The position numbers and the translations under genes were made by a program. Below the pieces are notes generated by a model. The model had not been told where the DNA came from. It ran no database searches and saw only the letters and a program-made list of their open reading frames with translations. A stretch of DNA of 64,000 nucleotides from Brachyspira aalborgi (GTDB lineage: Bacteria; Spirochaetota; Brachyspiria; Brachyspirales; Brachyspiraceae): positions 2,314,423 to 2,378,422 of the forward strand of contig NZ_SAXU01000001.1 of the NCBI RefSeq assembly GCF_008016455.1, written 5' to 3'. This document shows, piece after piece, positions 52,359 to 62,658 of the stretch. Positions within the stretch are counted from its first letter, which is position 1. Each line of letters opens with the position of its first letter.

Positions 52359-52530
52359 ATGATAACGGTGAATAAATTCTCATCTCATCTCATCTCATCT
52401 CATCTCATCTCATCTCATCTCATCTCATTGCTATAATTATAGCAAGTTTTGTCATTTTAAATTTTTTATTACAAAATTTAATTATATATTTAGAAATCTG
52501 AAAGAGCATGGTTTTGGAGTTAAATCATGA
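52359..52530 (+). CDS. Leader ORF D, frame broken by repeat number (presently OFF)
   Basis: ATG at 52359 with a good GAGGT ribosome site eight bases upstream opens MITVNKFSSH and enters a (TCTCA)10 array. At ten units it stops at 52434-52436. The frame one base over is open for 33 codons after the array and ends in a TGA (52528-52530) that overlaps the next gene's start as ATGA, the classic coupling arrangement. Eleven units would connect ATG and long frame. The ribosome site of the next gene (TTGGAG) lies inside the ON frame. Confidence 0.6.
52378..52427 (+). repeat. TCTCA pentanucleotide tandem array (leader D)
   Basis: Ten perfect TCTCA units. It is preceded by AATAAATTCTCAT, also found just before the array of leader E (GATAAATTCTCAT), which ties the two as relatives. 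Confidence 0.97.
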
Positions 52531-55514
52531 TTCTTTTCGACATATTATATAATATAACAATTTATCCAATAGAGTTTATAATAGAAATTGTATTTTATTT
52601 ATTTAATAATGTATTCAAATCTGGTTATGCTACAAGTTTATTCTTTTTAAGTTTAATTATAAATTTTATCTCTTTACCTTTATACAATATAGCAGAAAGT
52701 TGGCAGGCAAAAGAAAGAGCTATTCAAGAAAAAATGAAACCTATGATTGATAATATAAAAGCGGTTTATAAAGGCGACCAAAGATATTTATTAATTAGAG
52801 CTTGTCAAAGAATTAACGGCTATAAAACAATTTATGCATTCAGAGGAACTTTAGGACTGCTTATACAAATTCCTTTTTTCTTGGCTGCTTATAATTTTAT
52901 TCATAATCTCTCGGGCTTGCAACTCGGCAGTTTTTTATTTATAAAAGATTTTTCAAAGCCTGACGGAATATTAAATATTGGAGATATTAGCGTTAATATT
53001 TTGCCATTTATTATGACATTATTTAGTTTATTAGCTGGTTTGGTTTATAGCAAAAAATTAAGATTTAAGGAAAGTTTGCCGTTATATATTGTTTCGTTAA
53101 TATTTTTAGTTTTGCTTTATAATTCGCCTTCTGGTTTAGTATTTTATTGGACATTGAATTGTTTATTTTCATTGATAAAAAATATTTTTATAGAATATAA
53201 ATTATATAAAGTCTTTGTAGTGAATAAATATAAGATTTTAAGAGGTTATAATATATTTTTTATAATATTAACAATTATTTTTATTTTGCTTTTATCTTTA
53301 GGAAATATTGAGAGAAAAGCTTATTTATACGATTTTTCTTTTGAAGAAGTATTACAAGAAAAAAATATGATGTATTTATTCCGATTAAATTTTTATAGCA
53401 AAATATTTAGAAATAGCGATATTTATGGACTTAAAGTTGATACGAATAAATTAAATAACGATTCAATTATAGATATAAAATTTGACTATAATGGCAGTCC
53501 TTATGGAAATATAATATTAAAGGATTATATTGAAAACATAGGAAAAATAGAAGTTTATTATAAATTATTTATTAAAAAATATATTATAAATATTCTTATA
53601 ATATTATTTATTTTATTTATATTATTCAATAGTTATAAATACATTTTAAAAATATTTTCGGATAGTTTTTTAGAGAAAAGAAATTTATTGATTATAAGTT
53701 CCTGTTTGGTTATAAGCGTATTATCGGGGCTATTTATTTCAAGTTCTTTAATCGGAAATTCGCCGACAGAATTTAAAAGTCCTTTCGATTTAATAATAAA
53801 TGATTTATCTATGAGTTTGGGATTATTTTTATTTTATCCGTTATTTATTTATGTTTTATTTTCAGAAAATATAAAAAATTATTTAACTTTATTATTAATA
53901 TTCGTAGCTTCTTTTGTTTTGGTAAATACATTTATAATGAAAGGAAATTATATAAATATTAACGCGGATTTTGTATTTGATAATACAGATTTATTGAAAG
54001 CTTCATTAAAAGAAATATTATTAACGATTATTTTAGCAGTTGTTTTAATTTCAATAATTATTTTAATCATTAAAAAGAATAAAGCGATATTTTTAATTAA
54101 TATTTATTCTATAGTTTTATTGGTTTTAATAAGCATTTCAATATTTGATATTTCAAAAATAATTAAAGAACATAATAAATTGAGCGATAGCCAAATAGAG
54201 AGCGATAAACCTTCCACTACAAAAATATTTAATATTTCAAAAACTGGCGAAAATGTATTTGTATTTGTTTTGGACAGAGCGATTAATTCGTATTGGCTTG
54301 ACGCTTTTGAGAGATTTACTAATTATAAAAAAGATTTTGACGGATTTGTATTTTATCCTAATAATGTTTCTTTTTCACAGTCAACCATAAGTATTGGCTC
54401 ATTATATGGCGGATACGATTATTTACCTTATGAAATGAGTATTGACGGCGGTTATAATATTACTAAATTCCATAACGAAGCGTTGCTTACAATTCCTTTG
54501 GCTTTAGAAAAGTATAATTATAAATCTTCTGTGATTGACCCTCCATATGAAAACTTATTGGGTGATACATATAAGAAAGTATTTAAAGATTATACTAATA
54601 TATCAGTTTATAATAGTTCTTCAATACTTAATTATAGTTTGAATAATTACCTAAATTTGGATAGTAATTTTAATATAGAAGAATTAGCTAAATTAGAACA
54701 AAAAAATAAAATAATAAGATTTTCCATATTTAGAATGCTTCCAATTAATTTTAGAGCTGATTTTTATAGAGATAAAAGATGGTTTTTAACTTCTTCATCT
54801 TTCATAAGAATTAACTCAAGCATAAAATATTATTCTATGTTATTATCAACCCCCTATTTTCTTAATACAAAGAAAAGCGGTAATTATTGTAATGTTATAT
54901 ACAATATTATAACTCATGAACCTGCTTTCTTTTCTTCGGATTTTTTGCCTCATTTGGAATTAAATGAAGTTGATAATAAGGATATGATTATTTTTAAAGA
55001 CGATAATTCAGTCAGACATTTTTATGCAAATATTGCTTCTATTAATTGTATGACAAATTTTATAAGTTATTTAAAAGAAAACGATATTTATGATAATACT
55101 AAAATAATAATCGTTTCGGACCATGGGGCTGGAGTTAATACTACTTCCACAAATAAAAATATAAATTTTATTAATCCTTATAACGCTTTACTAATGTATA
55201 AAGATTTTAATTCTAGAGGCGAAATCAAAATAGAAACAAATTTCATGACAATAGCCGATACTCCATATTTAGCCACAAAACATATACCGAATATACAAAA
55301 TCCGTTTAATAATAAATTGATTACCAACGATTATAAAAACAAAGGTGTTTATTTAATAAGAGTTAATTCTTGGAGACCTGAAGGGCAATTTTCAAATCGC
55401 TATAATTTTAACCAATATTATTATGTTAAAGATAATATTTTTGATATTAATAATTGGAAAAAATTTGTTGTAGATTGGAAAACTAAAGAAACAAAGGAAA
55501 TTGAATTAAAATGA
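52527..55514 (+). CDS. YidC/Oxa1-like domain fused to a sulfatase-like phosphotransferase
   Basis: 995 residues. Residues about 1-235 match YidC/Oxa1 insertases: helices at about 7-30 and 33-55, then the cytoplasmic WQAKERAIQEKMKPMIDNIK hairpin, GLLIQIPFFLAAYNFIHNL and the NSPSGLVFYWTLNCLFSLIKN end. Further helices follow (about 245-265, 350-370, 387-407, 425-465, 490-545). The C-terminal third is an alkaline-phosphatase superfamily domain: VFVFVLDRAINSYW (about 577-590), SQSTISIGSLYGG and VSDHGAGVN (Asp865, His866), like LtaS-type enzymes. I infer a transferase of glycerol- or ethanolamine-phosphate groups onto a surface glycan. First gene behind leader D. Confidence 0.85.
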   Translation: MILFDILYNITIYPIEFIIEIVFYLFNNVFKSGYATSLFFLSLIINFISLPLYNIAESWQAKERAIQEKMKPMIDNIKAVYKGDQRYLLIRACQRINGYKTIYAFRGTLGLLIQIPFFLAAYNFIHNLSGLQLGSFLFIKDFSKPDGILNIGDISVNILPFIMTLFSLLAGLVYSKKLRFKESLPLYIVSLIFLVLLYNSPSGLVFYWTLNCLFSLIKNIFIEYKLYKVFVVNKYKILRGYNIFFIILTIIFILLLSLGNIERKAYLYDFSFEEVLQEKNMMYLFRLNFYSKIFRNSDIYGLKVDTNKLNNDSIIDIKFDYNGSPYGNIILKDYIENIGKIEVYYKLFIKKYIINILIILFILFILFNSYKYILKIFSDSFLEKRNLLIISSCLVISVLSGLFISSSLIGNSPTEFKSPFDLIINDLSMSLGLFLFYPLFIYVLFSENIKNYLTLLLIFVASFVLVNTFIMKGNYININADFVFDNTDLLKASLKEILLTIILAVVLISIIILIIKKNKAIFLINIYSIVLLVLISISIFDISKIIKEHNKLSDSQIESDKPSTTKIFNISKTGENVFVFVLDRAINSYWLDAFERFTNYKKDFDGFVFYPNNVSFSQSTISIGSLYGGYDYLPYEMSIDGGYNITKFHNEALLTIPLALEKYNYKSSVIDPPYENLLGDTYKKVFKDYTNISVYNSSSILNYSLNNYLNLDSNFNIEELAKLEQKNKIIRFSIFRMLPINFRADFYRDKRWFLTSSSFIRINSSIKYYSMLLSTPYFLNTKKSGNYCNVIYNIITHEPAFFSSDFLPHLELNEVDNKDMIIFKDDNSVRHFYANIASINCMTNFISYLKENDIYDNTKIIIVSDHGAGVNTTSTNKNINFINPYNALLMYKDFNSRGEIKIETNFMTIADTPYLATKHIPNIQNPFNNKLITNDYKNKGVYLIRVNSWRPEGQFSNRYNFNQYYYVKDNIFDINNWKKFVVDWKTKETKEIELK

Positions 55515-55558: not shown

Positions 55559-56830
55559 ATGATTTTATCCATTGTAGTTTTATTTATAATAATTCAAAGC
55601 AGTCTTTTTTGCTATATTGACCCTGGCACAGGAAGTTTGCTTTTTTCGGCATTATTTGGAATAATCGGAACTTTATTCTTTTTGTCGAAAGCGCTTTTAA
55701 TAAAATTAAAGACTTTTTCTTTTGCTGATAAAATAAATAAAAAAGAAAATATCTCTAAAGCTAAAATAATAATTTACGGCGAAGATAAAAGATATTATAA
55801 TGTGTTTAAGCCAATCATAGAAGAATTAATAAATTTAGAAATTCCTACGATTTATTATAGCTCAAGCTATGACGATAAAATTTTTGAAATAAAAAGCGAT
55901 TTTCTTAAAAGCGAATTTATAGGAACGGGAAATAAAGCTTATGCGAAATTAAATTTTATAGAAGCGGATATTTGTTTAATGACGACTCCGAATTTAGATG
56001 TATTTCAATTAAAGCGCTCTAAAGGAGTTAAGAAATATGTTCATATAACGCATTCGTCAGCGGAAACTTCAACATATTGTTTATATTCTTTAGATTTTTT
56101 CGATGCGGTATTTTTAAATGGCGAACATCAAATAAGAGATATTAGAGAATTGGAAAATAAAAGAAATACTATAATTAAAGATTTATATGTGGTAGGAAAT
56201 CCTTATTTGGACGAACTTTCAAAAATGAAAGAAACGATAACAAAAGAAAATAATAATAAAAAGACTATTCTTATAGCTCCTTCTTGGGGAATGAATTGTT
56301 TATTTAGAAGGTTTGGCGAAAAGTTATTAGACAATATAGTTAACTCCGATTATAATATTATTATAAGACCTCATCCTCAATCTTTAATATCGGATAAAGA
56401 TATTATTGATAAATTTCAAAACAGATATAAATATAAAAATAATGTAGAGTGGGATTTCAATAGAGTTAATATTTATTCTCTTTCTAAAGCCGATATAATG
56501 ATTTCAGATTTTTCGGGAGTAATATTCGATTACGCTTTTCTTTTTGAAAAACCCGTAATAATACCAAGTTTTACTTTCGATAAAAGAGGAACGGACGCTA
56601 TAGAAATAGACGAGGAAGTTTGGACTTTTGAAACCATCCCTAAAATAAGTTTTAAATTAGATGAAAATAATTTTTCTAATATTTCACAAATAATAGAAGA
56701 TTCTATTAATAATGAAACATTAAAAAATAATATTTTAAAAGCTAAAGAAGAAGCGTATATGTATGAAGGGCAGGCTTCAAAAAGAGCGGCTCAATTTCTA
56801 AACGATATGCTTATAACGATTAATAATTAG
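55559..56830 (+). CDS. CDP-glycerol:glycerophosphotransferase family protein
   Basis: 423 residues. An N-terminal membrane anchor (residues 1-45, two hydrophobic stretches with CYIDPGTGSLL in between) precedes a TagB/TagF-type domain: HITHSSAETSTYC, NPYLDE, ILIAPSWG, IIRPHPQS and the diagnostic SDFSGVIFDYAFLFEKPVI. Family role: transfers glycerol phosphate or a similar polyol phosphate to a glycan. It fits with the sulfatase/LtaS-like partners in building a teichoic-acid-like surface modification. Confidence 0.88.
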   Translation: MILSIVVLFIIIQSSLFCYIDPGTGSLLFSALFGIIGTLFFLSKALLIKLKTFSFADKINKKENISKAKIIIYGEDKRYYNVFKPIIEELINLEIPTIYYSSSYDDKIFEIKSDFLKSEFIGTGNKAYAKLNFIEADICLMTTPNLDVFQLKRSKGVKKYVHITHSSAETSTYCLYSLDFFDAVFLNGEHQIRDIRELENKRNTIIKDLYVVGNPYLDELSKMKETITKENNNKKTILIAPSWGMNCLFRRFGEKLLDNIVNSDYNIIIRPHPQSLISDKDIIDKFQNRYKYKNNVEWDFNRVNIYSLSKADIMISDFSGVIFDYAFLFEKPVIIPSFTFDKRGTDAIEIDEEVWTFETIPKISFKLDENNFSNISQIIEDSINNETLKNNILKAKEEAYMYEGQASKRAAQFLNDMLITINN

Positions 56831-56843
56831 CGAGGATATTAAA

Positions 56844-58313
56844 ATGAAAGCTATAATATTAGCCGCTGGTATGGGAACGAGACTCTCTCCTATGACTTTA
56901 TTAAAACCAAAACCTTTGCTTGAAATTAAAGGAAAAACCATTTTAGAAAATATGATAAAATTTTTAAATCGTGGAGGAATAAACGATATTACCGTAGTTA
57001 CGGGTTATAAACATGAATTGTTTGACGAATATAAAGAAAAATTAGGATTTAAAAAAGTCGTATATAAAGATTATAAAAATAAAAATAGCAGCTCTTCTCT
57101 AAAATTTGTAATAGACGAAATAGAAAAAGGAACTATAATATTGAACGGAGATTTATTTATAAACAAATCTTTTATTGAATATATAAAACCGAATATTTCT
57201 CAATTATTATCTCAACAAATTACCGAAGGAGTAATTTCTTGGGGATATATAATAGACAGCAATTTTAAATTAATAGATATAGATACAAACGCTATAAACG
57301 GATACGGAGACGGAATAGCGATATTTGATAATGAAGAAGATTTAAAGATTTTGAAAAAAGAATTAATAAATTGCAGCGATGAAGAATATTGGGAATATTG
57401 TATATTAAGAGCTATTGATAAAATAAATTTCTACTCTTTTAATTATGACGATATTTATACGGAAATAGATTCGTTTAAAGACGCCTTATATCATAATTTA
57501 TTAACTCCCGAAGAGATAGCACAACAATGCAGTGACGATGGAAAAATAGAAAGACTCGCTGGAATAACAAATATTAATTATAAGATTAAATTTTTAAATG
57601 AATATAAGGTTATAAGAATTCCTGGCAAAGGAACTGAAAATATAATAGACAGAACTTCGGAAAAAGAAATTTTAAATATTTTATACGATAAAGATATAGT
57701 TCCTAAAAGCGATTTTTACGATAGCGATATAAAATTAACCGATTATTTAGAAGGTTATAGGTCTTTAGATTTTGACGACTTAAAAAATTACGAGACAATT
57801 TTTCCTTTAATAATTAAACAAATGAAAAAACTTCATTCTATGCCACACGATAATTATAAAAATTTTAATGTTATATCTATGATAGAAGAAATTAAAAAAT
57901 ACGAGAAACTTGCAAATATAATTTTGGTTACAAAAATAGAACATAAATTTTTGCTTAATATAGCAAGAAAAATGGACGAGGGTAAACAAGTTTTATGCCA
58001 TAGAGATTTGCAACTTCCTAATATAATGTATAACGGCAAAGAAATAAAATTTGTAGATTTTGAATATTCTGGATTTTCTTCAATACTTTGGGAAATCGGA
58101 AACTTTACGGCGGAATTAGAATTAAATGACGAACAAATTAATAAATTTATAGAATTATATAAAGACATAACTTATAGAGAAATAATCGAAGGACAATTAA
58201 TGTCTAATTATGTATGGGCTTTATGGGGATGGATTTACGATTCAATAGATTTGGGAAGAAATTATTTAACAAGATTTCATTATAATCTAAATTATTTAAT
58301 GAAAAGTAATTAG
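56844..58313 (+). CDS. LicC-LicA fusion: cytidylyltransferase plus choline kinase-like protein
   Basis: 489 residues. Residues 1-230 form a nucleotidyltransferase (ILAAGMGTRLSPMTLLKPKP, ILNGDLFI) like LicC choline-phosphate cytidylyltransferase. Residues about 235-489 form a choline/ethanolamine kinase fold with the Brenner motif HRDLQLPN (His386, Asp388) and the metal-binding FVDFEYSG (Asp405). Together they would phosphorylate choline and make CDP-choline. The gene is followed 11 bases later by a DMT permease, as expected for a LicB-type importer. Substrate could also be ethanolamine or another amino alcohol. Confidence 0.87.
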   Translation: MKAIILAAGMGTRLSPMTLLKPKPLLEIKGKTILENMIKFLNRGGINDITVVTGYKHELFDEYKEKLGFKKVVYKDYKNKNSSSSLKFVIDEIEKGTIILNGDLFINKSFIEYIKPNISQLLSQQITEGVISWGYIIDSNFKLIDIDTNAINGYGDGIAIFDNEEDLKILKKELINCSDEEYWEYCILRAIDKINFYSFNYDDIYTEIDSFKDALYHNLLTPEEIAQQCSDDGKIERLAGITNINYKIKFLNEYKVIRIPGKGTENIIDRTSEKEILNILYDKDIVPKSDFYDSDIKLTDYLEGYRSLDFDDLKNYETIFPLIIKQMKKLHSMPHDNYKNFNVISMIEEIKKYEKLANIILVTKIEHKFLLNIARKMDEGKQVLCHRDLQLPNIMYNGKEIKFVDFEYSGFSSILWEIGNFTAELELNDEQINKFIELYKDITYREIIEGQLMSNYVWALWGWIYDSIDLGRNYLTRFHYNLNYLMKSN

Positions 58314-58324
58314 GATAAAATATA

Positions 58325-59200
58325 ATGAAAAGAGATAAAATTTTAGGACATACTTTTGCATTTTTAAGCGTTTTATTCTGGTCTTCTTTATATGTTTCTA
58401 CAAAAATACTGCTTGAAAGTTTTAATCCGCTTGAATTGTTGGTTTTGCAATTTTGTATGGGATATATTCTATTGCTCATAATTAAACCTAAAAGACTAAA
58501 ATTAAATAATAAAAAAGAAGAAATATATTTTGCTCTCGCGGGATTAACGGGAATAACTATTTATAATTTATTTTTAAATTTAGCTATGAGTTATTCGCTC
58601 GCTTCAAATGTAAGCGTTATAATCGCCGCAGCTCCATTATTCACGGGAATATTTTCGTTTATATTGAGAATTGAAAAGCCTTATATTAGTTTTTTTATAG
58701 GTTTTATAGTTTCTATTATTGGAATTACTATATTAAGTTTTAACGGACAAGCCGAACTTAAATTAAATCCTTTAGGAGATATTTTAGCTATAGTCTCAAG
58801 CATAGGTTGGGGACTTTATTCGGTTATAATAAAAAATATAACGGATATGAAATACGATATTATTTTATCCACAAGAAAAGTAATATTTTATGGAATAATA
58901 TTTATGATTCCGTCTTTTCTATTTTTAGATTTTCACCCTAATTTTAAAGCGTTTGCAAATCCTATAACTTTATTTAATATGATATTCTTGGCTACATTTG
59001 CTTCTGGAATATGTTTTATAATATGGAATAAAGCTACCGATTTGATAGGAGTTATTAAAACAAATATATATGTTTATTTAACTCCCGTAATTACAATATT
59101 TGTTTCTATAATAGTATTGAAAGAACATATAACGATTATTGCAATTGTAGGCATTGCATTAACTTTAGCTGGCGTTATAATTTCAGAGTTAAGATATTAA
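58325..59200 (+). CDS. DMT-family permease, candidate choline importer (LicB-like)
   Basis: 291 residues with ten predicted helices in two EamA repeats (WSSLYVSTKILLESFNPLELL opens the first; GDILAIVSSIGWGLYSVIIKN opens the second). By sequence it is a general EamA/DMT transporter. Its position after the LicC-LicA fusion suggests it brings in choline or a related amino alcohol, like LicB in Haemophilus and streptococci. Confidence 0.85.
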   Translation: MKRDKILGHTFAFLSVLFWSSLYVSTKILLESFNPLELLVLQFCMGYILLLIIKPKRLKLNNKKEEIYFALAGLTGITIYNLFLNLAMSYSLASNVSVIIAAAPLFTGIFSFILRIEKPYISFFIGFIVSIIGITILSFNGQAELKLNPLGDILAIVSSIGWGLYSVIIKNITDMKYDIILSTRKVIFYGIIFMIPSFLFLDFHPNFKAFANPITLFNMIFLATFASGICFIIWNKATDLIGVIKTNIYVYLTPVITIFVSIIVLKEHITIIAIVGIALTLAGVIISELRY

Positions 59201-59542: not shown

Positions 59543-61282
59543 TTGAAAATTAAAAAAATATTATATAATTTTTATATTAACTCTTTTATAATTATTTCAA
59601 TATTATATTTTACGATAACTCAATTTTTACTTCCGTCACTTTCGATTGACAGATTTAAAATAAGTTTTATAGATATATTATATATTTATTTATTTTCTTT
59701 AATTTCTTATTTTCTTTCAAATAAAAAATTGGTAATCTCTTATTTGTTTATTATAGTTTCGGTTTTTTCATTTTTTACAATAGAACCTTTAGGAATAACT
59801 ATTTTAACTAAACCGATATTTTTTACAGATATGGAATATTTATATCCTTCGCTAATTGAAGTTTTGCCATTTTATATGCAAATAATTACGATAGCGGCTA
59901 CAATATTATATTTTTCTTCGCTTTTTGCATTTTCAATATATTTTTTATATAGATTAATTAAAATATTTTTGATTGATAAGAAAAAAGGAATTATATTATT
60001 TTTTATAATTTTAATTACTACTTATTTATCGTTTTTTAGAGAAGTTAAAATTAATTCTATATATCCAAATTATATTGAAAGAGTAAATAAATTTGGAATA
60101 ATAAATTCAATAAGTTATAGAATTTCTTTCGACAGAGAAAATAATAAAGTAATTGCAAATATTGATAATGTTAAAAATGCGATTGAATTATTAAAAGAAG
60201 TTCAAAATAAAAGAGAGATTTCAAATTTAATTATGCCTTACGATTATACTAATAAAAGAAATGTTTTTATAATTTTTATGGAATCATTTTACGATTATAG
60301 TCATTTTTTAGAATTGTTTGATAAAGACCCTTTTCCAAAAGAATATAGAGAATGGGCTTTACAGTCGTCAAAAGTCGGACCGAACGATGGGAACGGAAGT
60401 TTATTTGCAAGGCTTTCGGGTTTAATTGGAACTTCGCCGATTTATCCGAAAAAACAAAAAAGCAAGGTAAATACCGCTTTGCCTTTTTTAATGAAAAACG
60501 CTGGCTATAAAACAATCGCGCTTGAAGAATGCGGAATAACTTTTAATTTAGACAAATTATTTCCAAATATTGGATTTGAAGAAATTATATTTAACTTGGG
60601 ACTAACAAACATAAAAAATTATATAAAGAATAACGATTTTGAAGAGCCTGTATTCGTTTCTGGATTTACATTTTTGGGGCATGCTGGAAGTCATATAAAA
60701 AATGATTTTAATATTTTTGAAAACAATAAAAGATTTTACGAAAAAATTAATCGAAAAGATAAAAAAGTTTTGCTTGAAACTATGGAAAATTCCGTTATGG
60801 CTGCAATTGATATAATAGAAACTAAAAATATAATTCTTCAAAAATATCCCGATGCGATTATAATTTTTAAGCATGACCATTTATATCCTTATTTGGCGGG
60901 AATGATTTATAATTCTTCTGTAGACGAAAATATAAAAAAAGAATTTTTTGAATCTTACGCTATTAGTCCGCTTTTAATATGGAATGGCAGAAACGGAGCT
61001 TTTAAGTTGGAAGACGGATTTCCGCCCGAAAATATTCCGTTATTTATAGCCGTAAATACTAAAATTAATTGGACGAATTCTATAATTTCGCTTTTATATA
61101 AAGATAAAACGGAAGGAATTATAAGATTTTATAATAATTTTTATACGAACGAAAATAATAAAATTATCCGAATAGAAGTTAGTAAAGAAAGTTTGTCTTA
61201 TAAATATAATTACGCTCAAAGAATTTTATCGGAAGATATTTTAAGAGGCGAAAAATATTTTAACGATATAATAACTCGATAA
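59543..61282 (+). CDS. LtaS-like sulfatase-family membrane phosphotransferase
   Basis: 579 residues starting at TTG behind GCGGAG. Five N-terminal membrane helices (about 12-30, 43-60, 65-90, 110-135, 150-167), then an extracytoplasmic alkaline-phosphatase superfamily domain: NVFIIFMESFYDYS (Glu246, Ser247), the SSKVGPNDGNGSLFARLSGL region in place of the LtaS Thr loop, and IIFKHDHLYPYLAG (about 440). Architecture matches lipoteichoic acid synthases and phosphoethanolamine/phosphoglycerol transferases. Its 3' end is duplicated at 62678-62780. Confidence 0.87.
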   Translation: MKIKKILYNFYINSFIIISILYFTITQFLLPSLSIDRFKISFIDILYIYLFSLISYFLSNKKLVISYLFIIVSVFSFFTIEPLGITILTKPIFFTDMEYLYPSLIEVLPFYMQIITIAATILYFSSLFAFSIYFLYRLIKIFLIDKKKGIILFFIILITTYLSFFREVKINSIYPNYIERVNKFGIINSISYRISFDRENNKVIANIDNVKNAIELLKEVQNKREISNLIMPYDYTNKRNVFIIFMESFYDYSHFLELFDKDPFPKEYREWALQSSKVGPNDGNGSLFARLSGLIGTSPIYPKKQKSKVNTALPFLMKNAGYKTIALEECGITFNLDKLFPNIGFEEIIFNLGLTNIKNYIKNNDFEEPVFVSGFTFLGHAGSHIKNDFNIFENNKRFYEKINRKDKKVLLETMENSVMAAIDIIETKNIILQKYPDAIIIFKHDHLYPYLAGMIYNSSVDENIKKEFFESYAISPLLIWNGRNGAFKLEDGFPPENIPLFIAVNTKINWTNSIISLLYKDKTEGIIRFYNNFYTNENNKIIRIEVSKESLSYKYNYAQRILSEDILRGEKYFNDIITR

Positions 61283-61416: not shown

Positions 61417-61580
61417 ATGAACGCAACGCAACGCAACGCAACGCAACGCAACGCAACGCAACGCAACGCAACCTACAACTATATCTTACAATCAATAATT
61501 ATTTAAAATTTAATTTATCGCTCTTTTTACTTTCGCTATTTATCATTGCAATTTGGGGACTATTCTATGCCTCTATTTAA
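61417..61580 (+). CDS. Leader ORF E, frame broken by repeat number (presently OFF)
   Basis: ATG at 61417 with a strong GGGAG site upstream opens an array-encoded peptide (NATQR repeated). At ten units it stops at 61504-61506. The frame two bases over is open for 35 codons after the array and ends at TAA 61578-61580, overlapping the start of the glycosyltransferase gene (ATG 61567) by 14 bases, so it would carry ribosomes through that gene's TTGGGGA site. Nine or twelve units would connect. The ON peptide is strongly hydrophobic. Confidence 0.55.
61420..61472 (+). repeat. AACGC pentanucleotide tandem array (leader E)
   Basis: Ten perfect AACGC units and a partial one. The flank GATAAATTCTCATG is shared with leader D. 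Confidence 0.97.
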
Positions 61581-62658
61581 TAAATTATTGCATTCAAAAA
61601 TAAGAAATAAATTTGGAATAAAAATAAGTCAAACTTTAAAAAATAAATCCGTATCGGCTAAAGAAATAAAATATAAAAAATATATTCCTCTAAAATATGA
61701 TTGCGAAGAAAAAGAAGAATTTATTTGTCAAATAGAAAATGGAAGAGTTTTTGCCGATTGGGGATTTATTTTTACGGAAGACGGATTTTATATAAAAGAT
61801 GTTTTGCCGCTAAACATAATCTACAGTCCGCAAGAATTGTTTGGCAGATTTATATTTTATAAATTCAGAAAAAGAAGAAAAATTAAAGGAAACATATTCG
61901 TTTTAAAATCGCAATGGCATGTTTATTACGGACATTGGATACATGAAATATTATCTCGGATATTTTTACTTAAAGATTCTAAATTATTTGACGAGATAGA
62001 TACAATTATTTTAAGTAAACATTGTAAAGCTAAATTTTATTTGAAAGGGCTTAAATTATTCAGTTTGGATAAGAAAAAAATTATATTAGTTGAAGATGAA
62101 GAAGAGATAATATGCGACAATTTATATTTTTCGTCATTTCCTGGAATTTCAGTTGCAAATCCTCCAAAATGGGTATGCGATAAATATTTAAATCTAACTA
62201 AAGAACTGCTTTCAAAAAATAATTTTCATTTTTACGATAAAATTTATATAAGCCGTAAAAGAGTTAAAACGAGGAATATTTTGAATGAAAACGAACTAAT
62301 AAATATTTTATCTCCGTTAGGTTATAAAGTAATATATCCAGAAGATTATTCTTTGGAAGAGCAGTTTTGCATATTTAATAAGGCTAAAAAAATTATATCG
62401 GTATTGGGAAGTGGACTTACAAATTTAGTTTGCTGCGATAAGGAAACTTCGGTTTTAGGAATAGTATCTTATGCAAGTTATGAAGACTGTCATCGCAATA
62501 TTTGCAAAACTATAGGAATGAAATATTTTGAATATGTTGAAAATAATCCAGATAATATCGTCTATTTTAATAAAATAATTAAAGACAGAAATAAAAATAA
62601 TTTTAAAATCGATTTGGATTTATTTAAAGAAAAATTACAAGTTTTTGAAAATTCTTAA
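61567..62658 (+). CDS. Glycosyltransferase family 61-like protein (DUF563)
   Basis: 363 residues from the ATG at 61567, which has GGGGA about seven bases upstream; a TTG at 61546 is less likely. The family pattern is seen in GHWIHEILSRIFLL (the H-W-x-H/E block), KIYISRKRVKTRN, NELINILSPLGYKVIYPEDYSLEEQ and IISVLGSGLTNLVCC. GT61-type enzymes add sugars such as xylose or GlcNAc to glycans, here probably to a surface polymer. The cassette with its leader lies between a gene end and its duplicate. Confidence 0.83.
   Translation: MPLFNKLLHSKIRNKFGIKISQTLKNKSVSAKEIKYKKYIPLKYDCEEKEEFICQIENGRVFADWGFIFTEDGFYIKDVLPLNIIYSPQELFGRFIFYKFRKRRKIKGNIFVLKSQWHVYYGHWIHEILSRIFLLKDSKLFDEIDTIILSKHCKAKFYLKGLKLFSLDKKKIILVEDEEEIICDNLYFSSFPGISVANPPKWVCDKYLNLTKELLSKNNFHFYDKIYISRKRVKTRNILNENELINILSPLGYKVIYPEDYSLEEQFCIFNKAKKIISVLGSGLTNLVCCDKETSVLGIVSYASYEDCHRNICKTIGMKYFEYVENNPDNIVYFNKIIKDRNKNNFKIDLDLFKEKLQVFENS

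Follow-up and report, generated by a model that had tools for sequence, protein, structure and literature searches.

Proteins of the YidC/Oxa1/Alb3 family (PF02096) are membrane protein insertases, and E.coli YidC and other Oxa1 proteins are reported to scramble lipids in vitro (PMC10491306); a review likewise describes YidC as a presumed lipid scramblase (PMC7618853). Here, we describe a gene from the spirochaete Brachyspira aalborgi that joins a YidC-like domain to a predicted phosphotransferase domain of the LtaS/EptA type and is followed by a gene for a TagB/TagF-like transferase. The fusion gene lies in a stretch of 64,000 nucleotides (contig NZ_SAXU01000001.1, positions 2,314,423 to 2,378,422, forward strand; hereafter the window) of a genome of 2.5 Mb in 8 contigs.

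With the YidC/Oxa1/Alb3 insertases, the fusion shares the core with its C1 hairpin, but it differs in a groove residue, forms a separate long-branch clade, carries an attached transferase and occurs in a genome that encodes a normal yidC elsewhere. LtaS and the EptA/MCR enzymes resemble it in having membrane helices followed by an outside catalytic domain with an invariant threonine and D, H and DH residues. LtaS and EptA use a glutamate as the first metal ligand, whereas the fusion has an aspartate, and it differs further by its YidC-like front end and by its link to a TagB-like gene and to head-group synthesis on cytidine mono- or diphosphate (CMP/CDP). The Lic1 and Pnt (phosphonyl tailoring) systems are similar in their LicA/LicC-like and PepM/Ppd/AEPT/PntC-like genes; here, a PF04464 enzyme and the fusion accompany the head-group genes. 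The paper on Pnt tailoring, the only directly relevant one on head-group chemistry that we found in the open-licence PubMed Central (PMC) literature, names LicD-like phosphotransferases or glycosyltransferases (PMC6697681), and a word search of its text returned no YidC, sulfatase or glycerophosphotransferase. Three-component systems of the GtrA/GtrB/GtrC type add sugars outside the cytoplasm (PMC11127046). By analogy, the present system may also combine a maker of donor lipid, membrane passage and an outside transferase with a variable acceptor, but its parts come from other families, its cargo would be a phosphate or phosphonate, and passage and transfer would share one protein. We found no YidC fusion to a sulfatase or LtaS from Brachyspira or Treponema described in the titles and abstract beginnings of the open-licence PMC literature.

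Architecture of the fusion gene

The gene is one uninterrupted frame of 995 codons with an ATG start and no internal stop, and VLDRA and SDHG motifs are both present in its C-terminal domain, as the preliminary description of the window had noted. Its features and the partner gene are as follows.

52527–55514, + strand: YidC–LtaS/EptA fusion gene, with relatives found in other genomes
52626–53195, + strand: YidC/Oxa1-like core, residues 34–223, with five predicted membrane helices (PF02096 and hhalign)
52662–52664, + strand: codon of N46, corresponding to the basic groove residue (K/R) in the first transmembrane helix (TM1) of YidC (alignment; N, S or T in 61/61 fusions)
52701–52832, + strand: cytoplasmic C1 hairpin, residues 59–102, a highly conserved family-specific motif of net charge +6
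53235–53576, + strand: sixth helix and outside beta module, residues 237–350 (in Brachyspira fusions of ~1000 amino acids and in other Brachyspira proteins)
53577–54197, + strand: second membrane region, residues 351–557, with six predicted helices ahead of the catalytic domain (model and positive-inside count)
54243–55511, + strand: catalytic domain of the alkaline phosphatase superfamily, residues 573–995 (structure searches of the model)
54273–54275, + strand: D583 of VLDRA, predicted metal ligand (invariant, 61/61)
54384–54386, + strand: T620, predicted nucleophile replacing the sulfatase cysteine (invariant, 61/61)
54915–54917, + strand: H797 of THEP (invariant, 61/61)
55119–55124, + strand: D865–H866 of SDHG, predicted metal ligands (invariant, 61/61)
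55559–56830, + strand: TagB/TagF-like transferase (PF04464) with the N-terminal membrane hairpin motif YIDPGTGS, the partner gene (Pfam, alignment and co-occurrence)

The loop charges are consistent with a catalytic domain outside the membrane: in a manual topology based on where the helices end, which puts both the N-terminus and the catalytic domain outside, the short inner loops contain 0.25 lysines plus arginines per residue, compared with 0.06 in the short outer loops. The structure model places the outside beta module at about residues 262–349. The segment of residues 258–345 (about 53298–53561) recurs in other Brachyspira proteins, where it directly follows a membrane anchor at the N-terminus (L022:1585-3690; L083:319-2373 and L084:1458-3032, both on the - strand). 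One of these proteins is an AlgX-like acetyltransferase, and its neighbour resembles, on visual inspection, an AlgI-type MBOAT protein; the shared segment may be a general acceptor-binding module.

The N-terminal domain descends from YidC

The Pfam model 60KD_IMP (PF02096) matches residues 34–223 with 75.9 bits (cut-off 35; E 4.6e-21), and a profile built from 18 fusion N-termini can be aligned over 209 columns with a profile of 8 spirochaete housekeeping YidCs (hhalign; probability 99.9, E 1.9e-36). The N-terminus, originally described as insertase-like, therefore has true YidC ancestry, and the profile–profile match rules out an unrelated helical bundle. The window fusion scores 80.3 bits with TIGR03592, just below the cut-off of 84.3, and a relative from locus L065 clears it with 88.6 bits. 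Such fusions can thus be named YidC in annotation, since one of the three members scanned passes.

It is not the housekeeping YidC, as had been proposed from its location. The same genome encodes a separate yidC (C1:1654501-1655097, - strand, in a 625-codon frame; E 2.1e-56), and 78 of the 80 fusion genomes searched contain a normal yidC at E 1e-28 or better; the other two, G306 and G316, are drafts in which no match reached that threshold. We built a tree from every second fusion N-terminus (31 sequences) together with 16 housekeeping YidCs and the sequence of the B. halodurans structure; in it, the fusion N-termini lie on one side of a branch of length 1.54 with 100/100 support. The fusion-type YidC subfamily has a single origin.

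The groove arginine is important in YidC, and the requirement for a basic groove residue varies between YidCs. At this TM1 position the 61 distinct fusions have N (38), S (11) or T (12) and never K or R (0/61). The aligned spirochaete housekeeping YidCs have K, except for an N in L025, and BhYidC2 has R. Because the L025 protein also has N, the residue by itself does not define the subfamily; its constant loss in 61/61 fusions does. In the alignment with YidCs, the C1 hairpin of the fusions has its own conserved sequence, and polar residues are conserved in their core. The earlier idea that the Oxa1-like part has been repurposed is borne out by its single origin on a long branch, the lost groove charge and, as described below, its nearly constant fusion.

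The catalytic domain resembles threonine-based phosphotransferases

Pfam matches to the C-terminus are weak and below cut-off (19.9 bits for Sulfatase, cut-off 25; 21.5 bits for Phosphodiest, cut-off 23). AlphaFold predicts most blocks of residues 573–995 with good confidence, and a Foldseek search with this domain ranks MCR-1 first (9nww, E 2.1e-8), followed by PbgA and LtaP. The LtaS-class fold suggested initially is upheld by VIA-align of the same model with LtaP (Z 17.3), LtaS (16.6) and MCR-1 (15.6). A sulfatase (17.7), a choline sulfatase (17.6) and a phosphonate monoester hydrolase (17.5) score so closely to these that the fold alone leaves the chemistry undecided.

The residues are more discriminating. 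D583, T620, H797, D865 and H866, whose roles we assigned by motif rather than by active-site geometry, are invariant in all 61 distinct full-length fusions. None of these (0/61) has a C-x-P/A-x-R motif with its cysteine after residue 300, which rules out a formylglycine sulfatase, and a similar pattern with S or C after residue 300 occurs in 2/61. Invariant D, T, H and DH residues together with no formylglycine motif are the pattern of a threonine-based phosphotransferase. Sequence and model thus support a place for the domain among the LtaS/EptA/MCR-type phosphotransferases, with head-group transfer as its predicted reaction.

Near-obligate fusion and a TagB-like partner

Further fusions of the same order are widespread. 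Of 392 spirochaete genomes, 104 give a match to a full-length profile at E 1e-60 or better, among them 15 of the 26 from the window's own genus, and in 20/20 loci inspected outside Brachyspira at least one frame of 857–974 codons includes both parts. With 61 distinct full-length copies in 104/392 genomes, a chance fusion or assembly artefact is ruled out. A profile of the YidC part matches at 1e-38 or better in 102/392 genomes (weakest best hit 1.1e-74); it misses two of the 104, G062 and G336, and the fusion match in G336 lies at a contig start. Frames of 847–1066 codons hold almost all of the YidC-part hits listed, and the exceptions in short frames (G349, G246, G261, G014, G009 and G173) look, by appearance, like contig ends or broken copies. 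The YidC subfamily is thus found almost only in fused form. A scan of genome contigs with the single protein gave 8 loci, all from Brachyspira, and cannot exclude fusions in other phyla. A 26-row alignment found 0 relatives among 174 stretches of viral contigs, which likewise does not exclude fusions elsewhere; 9 plasmid records matched the YidC part alone (18–22% of the query), and none spans the fusion.

The TagB-like gene starts 44 bases downstream of the fusion gene. Its hairpin motif YIDPGTGS is nearly invariant across 17 aligned TagB-like copies, and the corresponding DNA pattern occurs once in the genome. Among the 392 spirochaete genomes, 101 contain both genes, 3 the fusion only, 1 the TagB-like gene only and 287 neither (phi 0.97); the fusion-only genomes (G002, G008 and G021) are fragmented drafts and the TagB-only genome (G221) is 66% complete. 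Families f1, f3, f16, f19, f20, f32, f33, f43 and f56 each mix genomes with and without the pair. Of the 112 fusion hits listed outside the window's genus, 64 have a partner hit at most 1.5 kb away and 87 have one at most 5 kb away; counted by genome among these listed hits, the figures are 56/79 and 68/79. BLAST detects the partner in 16 of the 20 loci outside Brachyspira. Across 98 genomes, fusion copies outnumber TagB-like copies in 43, equal them in 55 and are fewer in none, as expected if one donor-maker serves several transferases.

Paralogous fusions also differ in a characteristic way. In 30 of 31 pairs from the same genome, the two proteins resemble each other more closely in the YidC part than in the catalytic part (mean 73 versus 48%); in the remaining pair (L076) both parts are identical to the precision printed. 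A shared YidC part with divergent catalytic parts is the pattern of one donor and several acceptors. Among the 20 loci outside Brachyspira, up to four copies stand in a row (L066). Close-set arrays with divergent catalytic domains comprise these four (genome G211) and three in L067 (G082). Outside the window, the B. aalborgi genome retains a remnant of a second copy (G000:C1:1192355-1192642, - strand; region L085) with 56% identity to residues 900–995 and two stop codons; the strain thus seems to have lost a paralogue.

Interchangeable routes of head-group supply

Two further genes of the window follow the partner gene.

56844–58313, + strand: LicC-like cytidylyltransferase fused to a LicA-like choline/ethanolamine kinase (Pfam and solved relatives)
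58325–59200, + strand: EamA transporter (Pfam)

The first of these matches LicC (E 8.3e-19) and choline kinase (E 3.4e-18), and its best solved relatives are the CTP:phosphocholine cytidylyltransferase 1jyk and the choline kinase 4r77; its sequence suggests that it makes CDP-choline or CDP-ethanolamine. LicB is an EamA-type permease, and the EamA transporter probably takes up choline or ethanolamine. The same cluster in other Brachyspira contains EutH, of the ethanolamine transporter family.

An alternative Brachyspira cluster contains phosphoenolpyruvate (PEP) mutase, a thiamine pyrophosphate enzyme, a class V aminotransferase and a small cytidylyltransferase, a set that fits 2-aminoethylphosphonate (AEP) synthesis. 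In a third form, found in other spirochaetes, Pfam identifies a cytidylyltransferase fused to a CobD-like pyridoxal phosphate enzyme. Its best solved relative is 6oux, named threonine phosphate decarboxylase-like (E 2.4e-62), it scores 182 bits with TIGR01140 CobD, under the cut-off, and it would fit synthesis of CDP-ethanolamine from phosphoserine. The gene names in these genomes rest on homology. A neighbour of the L065 fusion is the orthologue of T. denticola PntC (6pd1, E 5.9e-249), which makes CMP-AEP (PMC6697681).

Family f1 aside, there are 88 fusion genomes; we compared 80 of them with 80 control genomes without a fusion. PEP mutase was found in 37/80 fusion genomes and 2/80 controls (one control match being a fragment), the CobD-like fusion gene in 33/80 and 0/80, both together in 6/80 fusion genomes, LicCA-like genes in 8/80, and at least one of the three routes in 67/80. 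The CobD-like fusion lies within 2 kb of the partner gene in 25 of its 33 genomes. Head-group supply around the fusion is therefore swappable between three routes, and the neighbouring genes suggest an amino-alcohol phosphate or phosphonate (choline, ethanolamine or 2-aminoethylphosphonate) as the cargo. Genome G055 is closely related to the fusion-carrying genomes G044, G167 and G173 (all of genus g23) but has neither the fusion nor the TagB-like partner, and PEP mutase and the CobD-like fusion gene are missing as well; the complete system may have been lost naturally here. No LicD was found among the neighbours scanned with Pfam, and no genome-wide search was aimed at it.

The preliminary observation of the fusion is confirmed by these results and its interpretation is partly supported. 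Polyol-phosphate, originally named as the transferred group, does not agree with the amino-alcohol phosphates and phosphonates indicated by the neighbours or with the top Foldseek match, MCR-1, which is a phosphoethanolamine transferase. The location in a glycan cluster holds for the downstream side, where surface-glycan genes lie, but not for the upstream side, which has amino-acid genes (a DapH-like acyltransferase and an aminotransferase).

Proposed pathway and alternatives

The assignment of the fusion to a pathway of amino-alcohol/phosphonate surface decoration is well supported. For its mechanism, we tentatively favor a relay, to which we give slightly less than an even chance: the TagB-like enzyme would load a lipid, the YidC-like domain would pass it across the membrane and the LtaS/EptA-like domain would transfer its head group to surface glycans. 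The domains, catalytic residues, single origin, near-obligate fusion, TagB-like co-occurrence and head-group modules were computed directly, and from them we infer the chemistry of loading, passage and transfer as well as the lipid intermediate. First, the cell would make a cytidine-activated amino-alcohol head group, in the window by EamA uptake followed by phosphorylation and activation of choline or ethanolamine by the LicC–LicA fusion. All three routes have in common a small amino-alcohol head group on CMP, with the TagB-like enzyme and the fusion downstream. The TagB/TagF-like enzyme would then take the head group, in its phosphate or phosphonate form, off CMP and attach it to a lipid carrier at the inner face. 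The YidC-like domain, no longer a protein insertase, would receive the loaded lipid, using its cytoplasmic C1 hairpin as the dock for the TagB-like partner, and may pass it to the outer face by the scrambling ability of the Oxa1 fold; that the fusion travels with choline, ethanolamine and phosphonate decoration genes suggests that an ex-insertase helps to move building blocks across the membrane. Finally, the outside domain would take the head group onto T620 and transfer it to a surface glycan. Paralogues would have a common front end and differing catalytic domains, and hence differing acceptors.

A bolder form, which is conceivable but on balance doubtful, makes this Oxa1/YidC branch a dedicated flippase for lipid-linked phosphocholine, phosphoethanolamine or aminoethylphosphonate that feeds its fused outside transferase directly, a phosphate/phosphonate counterpart of GtrA-B-C across spirochaetes. 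If true, an Oxa1/YidC branch serves surface decoration across a wide range of spirochaetes. In the fusions, nature seems to have released an Oxa1-superfamily domain from protein insertion, which makes the insertase-as-scramblase claim directly testable. They also provide candidates for the membrane step and the transfer step in spirochaete decoration with phosphonate, phosphoethanolamine and phosphocholine.

Several points weigh against the relay. We know of no lipid intermediate of this kind, and EptA and MCR use phosphatidylethanolamine directly, so that a dedicated donor-maker would be unneeded. The conserved C1 hairpin and core could equally be a docking or insertion device. None of the three head-group routes was found in 13 of the 80 fusion genomes, and PEP mutase lies within 2 kb of the partner gene in 10 of 37 genomes and within 10 kb in only 19. 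In Brachyspira, many extra fusion copies stand alone, away from the cluster, which the relay explains only by the use of a common donor. The genomes behind the co-occurrence are akin and thus not independent samples, so that a Fisher value is no true probability. The predicted local distance difference test (pLDDT) score of the YidC part is mostly 26–58 in the full-length AlphaFold model and averages 46 when this part is modelled alone, because the alignment rows are few and near-identical; its fold assignment therefore rests on profiles rather than on the model.

The co-occurrence, the conserved YIDPGTGS hairpin of the partner, with its DNA pattern found once in the genome, and the strongly conserved C1 hairpin would also be explained if the YidC-like part were a scaffold that binds the TagB-like partner and couples the inside and outside enzymes while moving no lipid, leaving the catalytic domain to use an ordinary phospholipid or a lipid-linked glycan. 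We regard this as unlikely, though a serious contender, since a mere scaffold has no obvious need of the whole five-helix core, the conserved polar residues and a family-specific groove residue. Distinctly less probable is a private insertase, a YidC-like part that has kept its membrane protein insertion activity and uses it on the catalytic half of its own protein or on the hairpin of the TagB-like partner. The retained fold and C1 hairpin and the TIGR03592 score of the L065 fusion are in its favor. However, the basic groove residue is lost in every fusion (not decisive, given that the need for it differs between YidCs), nearly all fusion genomes have a normal YidC, and LtaS/EptA proteins elsewhere do without a private insertase. 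An LtaS-like role for the catalytic domain, polymerizing phospho-amino-alcohol or glycerophosphate units, with the TagB-like enzyme priming or extending the polymer inside, is improbable too: the structural matches to LtaS and LtaP and the PF04464 partner would suit such a polymerase, but a chain could not grow from ethanolamine, choline or AEP, which lack a second hydroxyl, and the first metal ligand is D583 rather than the glutamate of LtaS. Least credible of all is a hydrolytic role, as a sulfatase or phosphonate hydrolase with no part in transfer, which the top VIA scores would allow, but which conflicts with the absent C-x-P/A-x-R motif, the invariant threonine and the membrane helices that precede the catalytic domain, as in LtaS and EptA.

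Other genes near the fusions

Two genes farther downstream in the window have an uncertain association with the system.

59543–61282, + strand: separate LtaS-like protein without a YidC part (weak Sulfatase match)
61546–62658, + strand: glycosyltransferase family 61 protein (Pfam)

The separate LtaS-like protein has an E where D583 stands, at what looks like the same place. At two other loci, PEP mutase is fused to a PF01467 cytidylyltransferase-like domain (L033:4622-6460 and L048:10799-12811), and the L048 protein additionally holds an NTP_transferase domain; triple fusions of this kind account for 2.8% of Ppm proteins (PMC6697681). A SpoIID-like gene, so labelled from the Pfam match of the L033 copy, adjoins the ~1000-residue fusion in six Brachyspira loci (L033, L041, L043, L044, L045 and L046) and also stands beside one fusion copy in L076, a hint of a link to peptidoglycan.

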